NCBI GenBank assembly: GCA_003045895.1
Contig: PZPC01000005.1
Span: forward strand, 62,001-126,000
Length of the DNA stretch: 64,000 nucleotides
Origin: Bacteroidota bacterium
Lineage (GTDB): Bacteria; Bacteroidota; Bacteroidia; Chitinophagales; Saprospiraceae
Direction of reading: 5' to 3'
The notes beneath the pieces are model-generated. The model searched no databases. It was given only the letters and a program-made list of their open reading frames with translations, and was not told the origin of the DNA. Shown here piece by piece: positions 16,075 to 22,933 of this stretch. Position 1 is the stretch's first letter, and every line of letters starts with the position of its first letter. The translations under genes and the position numbers were made by a program.

Positions 16075-16082
16075 TACTTTTG
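16075..16082 (+). promoter_or_regulatory. Bacteroidetes -7 element (TACTTTTG) upstream of DUF5606-like gene
   Basis: TAnnTTTG match, 24 nt before ATG 16107; no clear -33 partner. Confidence 0.4.
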
Positions 16083-16106
16083 CGGTTCGGACTAAACTAC
16101 AACTGT

Positions 16107-16529
16107 ATGAACTTAGACAATCTGATCGCAGTGAATGGCCTGAGCGGCATTTACCGAATGGCTGCTAACCGCAGTAACGGATTGATCATTGAAGATTTGG
16201 AAACGGGCAAACGGCGTTTCGCCAGTTCCAGAAAGCACCAATTTACCCCCCTGGGATCGATCGCTATTTTTACCAGCGATGGTGACTCCGTGGAATTAGT
16301 GACCGTATTCCAGAGCATGCGCGATCAATACGAAGCGCAGCCGCCGGTGGATCCCAGCGTCAGTACGGAAGAACTTTTTGCCTACTTCACCAAGATCCTT
16401 CCCAACTACGATCCTGAGCGGGTGTACCCTGGCGACGTCAAAAAGGTAATTAAATGGTTTAATAGTTTACACAGCAACGGCTTGCTCAAGGATTCCGAAG
16501 AAGAAGAAGAAGAAGAAGAAGAAGAATAG
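16107..16529 (+). CDS. DUF5606-like conserved protein with poly-Glu C-terminus
   Basis: 'MNLDNLIAVNGLSGIYRMAANRSNGLIIEDLETGKRRFASSRKHQFTPL' resembles the Bacteroidetes DUF5606 family; C-terminal E10 tract. Confidence 0.8.
   Translation: MNLDNLIAVNGLSGIYRMAANRSNGLIIEDLETGKRRFASSRKHQFTPLGSIAIFTSDGDSVELVTVFQSMRDQYEAQPPVDPSVSTEELFAYFTKILPNYDPERVYPGDVKKVIKWFNSLHSNGLLKDSEEEEEEEEEE
16497..16526 (+). repeat. (GAA)10 microsatellite encoding poly-Glu
   Basis: Direct reading of ten GAA codons before the TAG stop. Confidence 0.98.
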
Positions 16530-19098: not shown

Positions 19099-19357
19099 TT
19101 TACTCTATTTTTGAGCGGCAAAAAAATAGCCCGCGTGGACTAGTCCTGATCAATATTTATCCCTTTAAGTGGGTAAAGAAAGCTGTTTTTTAAAAAAAAC
19201 CTTTCTTTAACTTTATATTATTTATCTTTATACATCTTTTTCGACTTTTTCGCGTTTTATAGTGATAAAATGTTATTTTGGGCACACAAACGGATACAAT
19301 AGCTAAAAATATACTTTTGAATATTAATTCCATTTGTCGTTGATTTTGCAATTTTTT

Positions 19358-19391
19358 TTTGGCTCGAACTTGTTTTTATCTTGTATCTTTG
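19358..19391 (+). promoter_or_regulatory. Candidate Bacteroidetes promoter (TTTG-N22-TATCTTTG)
   Basis: TTTG at 19358-19361; TATCTTTG at 19384-19391 (matches TAnnTTTG). Confidence 0.55.
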
Positions 19392-19397
19392 TGAACA

Positions 19398-19530
19398 CGT
19401 TCAAATTGAGTCTGCGCAATCTAATAGAATCAAGTTGATTCTTAAAAATATAAGGCTTTCGAGCCGCAAGACGTTAATAGGGTTTTAGGTGTTTATTTTG
19501 GGATCGGTACTATGTACCGATCTTTTTTTT
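19398..19530 (+). ncRNA. Candidate small RNA between promoter-like element and Rho-independent terminator
   Basis: No ATG ORF; hairpins agaatca-agt-tgattct, ggct-ttcg-agcc and terminator gatcggtac-tat-gtaccgatc. Confidence 0.45.
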
Positions 19531-19531
19531 T
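19502..19531 (+). terminator. Rho-independent terminator
   Basis: gatcggtac-tat-gtaccgatc (9-bp perfect stem) followed by about T10 on + strand. Confidence 0.85.
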
Positions 19532-19599
19532 GTCCTATCCGACCACTAATCTGATTCCGGTAGCATAAGCCCAGCCCAACCCAGCCAAGCCTGGCTGGC

Positions 19600-22901: not shown

Positions 22902-22933
22902 ACCCGTCCCGTCGGTTGGCAGACGGGACGGGT
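22902..22933 (-). terminator. Terminator of the downstream Omp28-like gene
   Basis: acccgtcccgtc / gacgggacgggt perfect 12-bp stem, followed on the minus strand by ctttgttttt. Confidence 0.75.

Follow-up and report, generated by a model that had tools for sequence, protein, structure and literature searches.

A putative small-RNA gene of an undescribed family, with a conserved unpaired core before its terminator, in the Saprospiraceae

Introduction

To our knowledge, what is known of regulatory RNA in the Bacteroidota comes mainly from gut Bacteroides, and no open-access literature on Saprospiraceae small RNAs with terminators was found. In the 64-kb stretch of Saprospiraceae DNA analyzed here (the window), a promoter-like sequence and a terminator-like hairpin of the same orientation stand between two genes of the opposite strand, and an earlier note, made from the letters alone, had proposed that they enclose a small RNA. 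Is this orphan pair a gene, and if so, what might its product do? Judging from the sequence comparisons below, the pair very probably marks a genuine small-RNA gene, which appears to be one of an undescribed family. The members of this family have in common an unpaired core, GGGUUUUAGGUGUUU, directly before the terminator hairpin, and usually carry a hairpin 5' of it. Most likely, and with somewhat better than even confidence on our part, the RNA acts in trans through this core as a seed on the start regions of mRNAs.

Structure of the Locus

The features of the locus are collected in Table 1, and the parts described in the earlier note were found letter for letter. The promoter consists of TTTG (19358-19361) and TATCTTTG (19384-19391) with a spacer of 22 nt; such a match is expected 0.03 times on the + strand of the 501-bp intergenic region, and the pattern TTTG-N18-23-TANNTTTG has four matches in the 64-kb window (0-3 in shuffled sequences). 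Both small hairpins lie exactly where they had been placed, as does the perfect 9-bp terminator stem, in which GATCGGTAC (19502-19510) pairs with GTACCGATC (19514-19522) ahead of T9. The transcript had been described as free of ATG reading frames, and the sole ATG of 19397-19531 is indeed at 19512, within the terminator loop. The two neighboring genes run on the minus strand, whereas a T-run is found on the + strand alone, and the terminator therefore serves neither of them, as had also been argued. We propose, on strong sequence evidence, that 19397-19531 would be transcribed from its own housekeeping promoter to its own terminator; at the level of sequence, promoter and intrinsic terminator bound a short non-coding transcript, as in trans-encoded sRNAs. 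A search of the sequence for tRNA and tmRNA found none.

Table 1. Features of the predicted small-RNA locus and its neighbors (positions in the window).
Feature	Position	Strand	Remarks
Sigma-ABfr-type Bacteroidetes promoter, TTTG-N22-TATCTTTG	19358..19391	+	Exact match; TANNTTTG at the equivalent place in 3 congeners
GAACACGTTC palindrome across the predicted start site	19393..19402	.	GAACRYGTTC kept in 4/4 congeners
Predicted small RNA, ~135 nt	19397..19531	+	Ends inferred from promoter and terminator
5' hairpin 1, AGAATCA-AGT-TGATTCT	19426..19442	+	Hairpin at the same place in congeners, stem sequence unrelated
5' hairpin 2, GGCT-TTCG-AGCC, directly 5' of core	19454..19465	+	Folds in congeners with other letters
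Core TTAATA-GGGTTTTAGGTGTTT, conserved, single-stranded	19474..19494	+	Candidate seed or protein-binding site
Intrinsic terminator, stem GATCGGTAC/GTACCGATC, loop TAT, T9	19502..19531	+	Stem covaries across 40 relatives
Flanking gene, 245 aa	18361..19098	-	No Pfam match; homologous neighbor in 4/4 congeners
Flanking gene, 473 aa	19600..21021	-	No Pfam match; homologous neighbor in 4/4 congeners

The start-site palindrome GAACACGTTC is a possible operator; GAACNNGTTC has a single occurrence in the window. The same palindrome GAACACGTTC is also seen upstream of a family copy at another locus (L013). Elsewhere in the window, a strong 12-bp terminator-like hairpin lies on the minus strand at 22902-22933, and a DUF5606/DUF6852 protein with a terminal run of glutamates is encoded at 16080-16529.

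Conservation of the Locus, Core and Terminator

Of 61 genomes searched by BLAST with 19340-19545, 18 gave matches, a count that includes the genome of the window. Genomes of the same genus keep both neighbors, the promoter, the start-site palindrome and an almost unchanged 3' part: TANNTTTG stands 94-98 nt 5' of the core in three congeners, and the sequence from GTTAATA through the T-run is nearly invariant. In the congeners the 5' hairpins still pair although their letters have changed (GGCT..AGCC of the window corresponds to AGCC..GGCT in the others), and in 82 copies the region 5' of the core has a more stable fold than shuffled versions (Wilcoxon p = 5e-9). Promoter, hairpins, core and terminator are thus kept together at the locus in three congeners, which supports the small-RNA reading as far as sequence can. 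The earlier note had staked that reading on conservation in close relatives, and it has held up, the core and the covarying terminator recurring in dozens of Saprospiraceae genera.

The most constant part of the family is the 15-nt single-stranded core, not the hairpins. With at most one mismatch, the core GGGTTTTAGGTGTTT was found in 275 of 398 family genomes, although many of the one-mismatch matches are due to chance according to the control columns. Among the fetched loci, a terminator follows 117 of 130 exact cores and none of 20 one-mismatch cores. Since most loci were collected by exact core match, the constancy of the core is partly a product of selection and its apparent invariance is inflated; less biased evidence comes from the BLAST matches, from this terminator contrast and from the drifted cores found after Hsp20-like genes. 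The terminator stem, by contrast with its controls, covaries strongly: over 40 copies of type A (defined below), 96.8% of cells are paired and the covariation is 0.85, as against at most 0.21 for slid and 0.34 for shuffled alignments, with changes on both sides in nine of ten pairs. A conserved unpaired stretch that may serve as a seed is therefore found together with covarying structure, a combination expected of trans-encoded sRNAs.

Named matches are almost all Saprospiraceae, Lewinella, Neolewinella, Phaeodactylibacter or Flavilitoribacter. A covariance model, with the window copy included in its training set, gave strong matches within the family and weak ones elsewhere in the order; the latter (model R1; best 43 bits, in G617, with an altered core) are terminator-like and were set aside. 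Of 396 genomes sampled across the phylum, three contained a longer core pattern; two of these belong to the Saprospiraceae, and the third (G950) carries one mismatch.

The earlier note had also suggested a comparison with Rfam, and Rfam 15 gave no family at its gathering threshold for the window and 15 related loci. Sub-threshold matches (ncr1241, the L20 leader, BTnc201) were judged to be chance matches to terminators. The Bacteroides sRNA BTnc201 (RF04177) shows a weak local likeness, GTGTTT-TTTTG before the terminator, and is not a match, since its 18.3 bits (E 0.69) fall short of the gathering score, which is 105. Because the core recurs in related bacteria and viruses and yet is absent from RNA databases, we regard the family as an undescribed one of putative regulatory RNAs.

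Possible Targets and Partners of the Core

In its predicted architecture, with a constant core left unpaired between hairpins, the RNA is as expected of a base-pairing sRNA. As a seed, the core would base-pair with several mRNAs around their translation starts and thereby lower their translation. In 2 Mb of congener G002, exact complements of at least 11 nt were found three times in start regions, versus 0.46 for shuffled cores, a count that 3 of 200 shuffled cores reached; the best predicted duplex in these 2 Mb has -23.2 kcal/mol, and energy tests on the same 2 Mb of this one congener gave a marginal excess. Genome-wide, the core complement, alone or before ATG, was not over-represented relative to the reversed control. 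Predicted sites for the core in G002 include those at 89777, 1108390 and 444735. The last of these, one of the sites of at least 11 nt, is kept in G003, and was rejected as a general target since the window's genome lacks the gene in question. Three further candidates were dropped: the DUF2851 mRNA, whose promising site is not conserved among the congeners; the Hsp20 start region, where shuffled cores did equally well (80 of 200); and an enrichment of secreted-protein mRNAs among targets predicted at -16 kcal/mol (6 versus 2.5), which 16 of 200 shuffles reached. Because the target tests were only weakly positive, mechanism and targets are what we infer.

It is for the same lack of a genome-wide excess, the unconserved DUF2851 site and the missing conserved candidate that a protein-binding role stays a serious rival, although we consider it rather unlikely. 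According to this explanation, the core is a site for an RNA-binding protein, such as an RRM protein, and the copies are a protein sponge or stability tag without mRNA pairing. The core is constant, as would suit a protein-binding site, and contains two UAGG-like repeats, target enrichment is not clear, and titration would suit the multicopy arrays described below. An RRM protein is present in all six genomes checked, the single RRM-domain protein (RRM_1) of the window's genome being encoded at G000:C140:32104-32313. However, the target excess is weak yet not nil, and RbpB of Bacteroides binds sRNAs that pair with mRNAs too (PMC11697453). For mRNA pairing through the core as well, the RRM protein of the window's genome is perhaps a partner and may be considered a candidate RNA-binding protein.

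Type A, Type B and Viral Copies

Copies of the family are of two types. Type A, to which the window copy belongs, has TAATA 5' of the core and is usually single copy; 41 of 94 such copies are found 3' of a co-oriented Hsp20 gene and none 5' of one (counts by tblastn, with PF00011 confirmed in two representatives), and others stand alone like the window's, some with TANNTTTG upstream. Type B typically has TTTTCATGATATGAATAT 5' of the core and forms tandem arrays of up to six copies, as in G082, where six copies lie ~147 nt apart. In 18 of 34 type B copies GTGAC-N15/16-CGTC is found upstream (0.04 expected by chance), which we take to be an ECF-like sigma promoter. Arrays of type B were recorded at L052 (G082:C1), L053, L054, L055, L067 (G000:C16), L178, L179 and L188; among the neighboring genes are lon in G082 and one for an FKBP isomerase in G021. 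The same GTGAC-N15/16-CGTC pattern also precedes genes for predicted secreted proteins at L257, L267 and L284 of the window's genome, which may form an ECF regulon.

The association with Hsp20 could also mean that the element is a mere 3' end, namely a stabilizer or terminator of Hsp20 mRNA, the window copy being a relic after gene loss. The one-sided position of the type A copies and the drifted cores, which likewise lie 3' of Hsp20-like genes, would agree with this explanation. However, promoter, palindrome and 5' hairpins are retained at the window copy and in its congeners in the absence of an Hsp20 gene, and no type B copy has Hsp20 upstream; we therefore regard a mere 3'-end element as improbable.

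Under a seed-carrying small RNA, which we prefer, the copies would deliver one seed under different signals: that of the housekeeping promoter for the window copy, heat shock for copies in Hsp20 3'UTRs, and the ECF-like promoter for the tandem copies. The window's genome has three exact or near-exact copies, and two copies of type B lie 122 nt apart in it at C16. In such multiplicity, seen also in the six-copy array of G082, the family resembles the multicopy paralogs of FopS/GibS in Bacteroides. Exact cores were found in addition on five IMG/VR contigs (L347, L348, L349, L350 and L351), most with a terminator-like hairpin, and phage-type genes lie near three of these five viral loci (RecT on L348 and L349, MuA/MuB-like proteins on L350). 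GenBank plasmid and phage records gave no DNA match.

That the conserved element encodes a short peptide instead of a functional RNA is very improbable. Type B contains an in-frame ATG AAT ATG GGT TTT AGG, and a 35-aa TTG-started frame overlaps the window copy; however, type A carries TAA TAG in that frame, the window RNA has no ATG outside the terminator loop, and indels distinguish the upstream part among relatives. All codon positions of the core are constant, the third included, and the core is therefore not coding. A chance meeting of promoter-like and terminator-like sequence is scarcely credible: by itself, the fold of the window RNA is just mildly more stable than that of shuffled sequence (z -1.9) and terminator-like sequences in the region are no more numerous than in shuffled sequence, but positional conservation in four congeners and family-wide covariation contradict it, and it is for this conservation that we rate the locus above chance.

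Comparison with Known Systems

By analogy of organization, the nearest described system in kind would be FopS of Bacteroides with RbpB. The FopS sRNAs comprise 14 paralogs that are bound by RbpB and pair near start codons, with the seed in their 5' region, and are reported to be conserved within the Bacteroidaceae; LhrC of Listeria and Qrr of Vibrio are multicopy sRNAs as well (PMC11697453). FopS/GibS of B. thetaiotaomicron and the window's family, both from the same phylum, are multicopy with a shared seed (a proposed one in the window's family), mix intergenic and 3'UTR-derived members and have sigma-ABfr promoters. A phage copy is reported for FopS/GibS and copies of the window's family are found on viral contigs, and an RRM protein is present on both sides, that of the window's genome as candidate binder. 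In contrast to the 5' seed of FopS, the core of the window's family is placed 3', just ahead of the terminator, and no Rfam model reaches threshold, the two having been compared by Rfam models and description only.

Other parallels are more distant. MicA and RybB of E. coli are Hfq-dependent proteobacterial RNAs that depend on sigma-E, the ECF sigma factor of envelope stress; they are ECF-driven small RNAs, as we propose for type B, whereas their sequence is unrelated and the promoter of the window copy is of the housekeeping kind. LhrC and Qrr are each encoded by a set of short, nearly identical sRNA genes that share a seed, and the multicopy one-seed plan is alike in the window's family, whereas sequence and lineage are unrelated.

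Implications

We tentatively suggest, at somewhat less than even confidence, a Saprospiraceae-wide RNA regulon in which one seed would be placed under several unlinked signals and also carried by phages, which would use it to regulate mRNAs of the host or of the phage. If the small-RNA reading is true, the locus belongs to a clearly delimited, undescribed sRNA family of the Saprospiraceae that occurs in several independent genomic settings. Family members are also present in culturable strains, and the core and its copies yield directly testable predictions.
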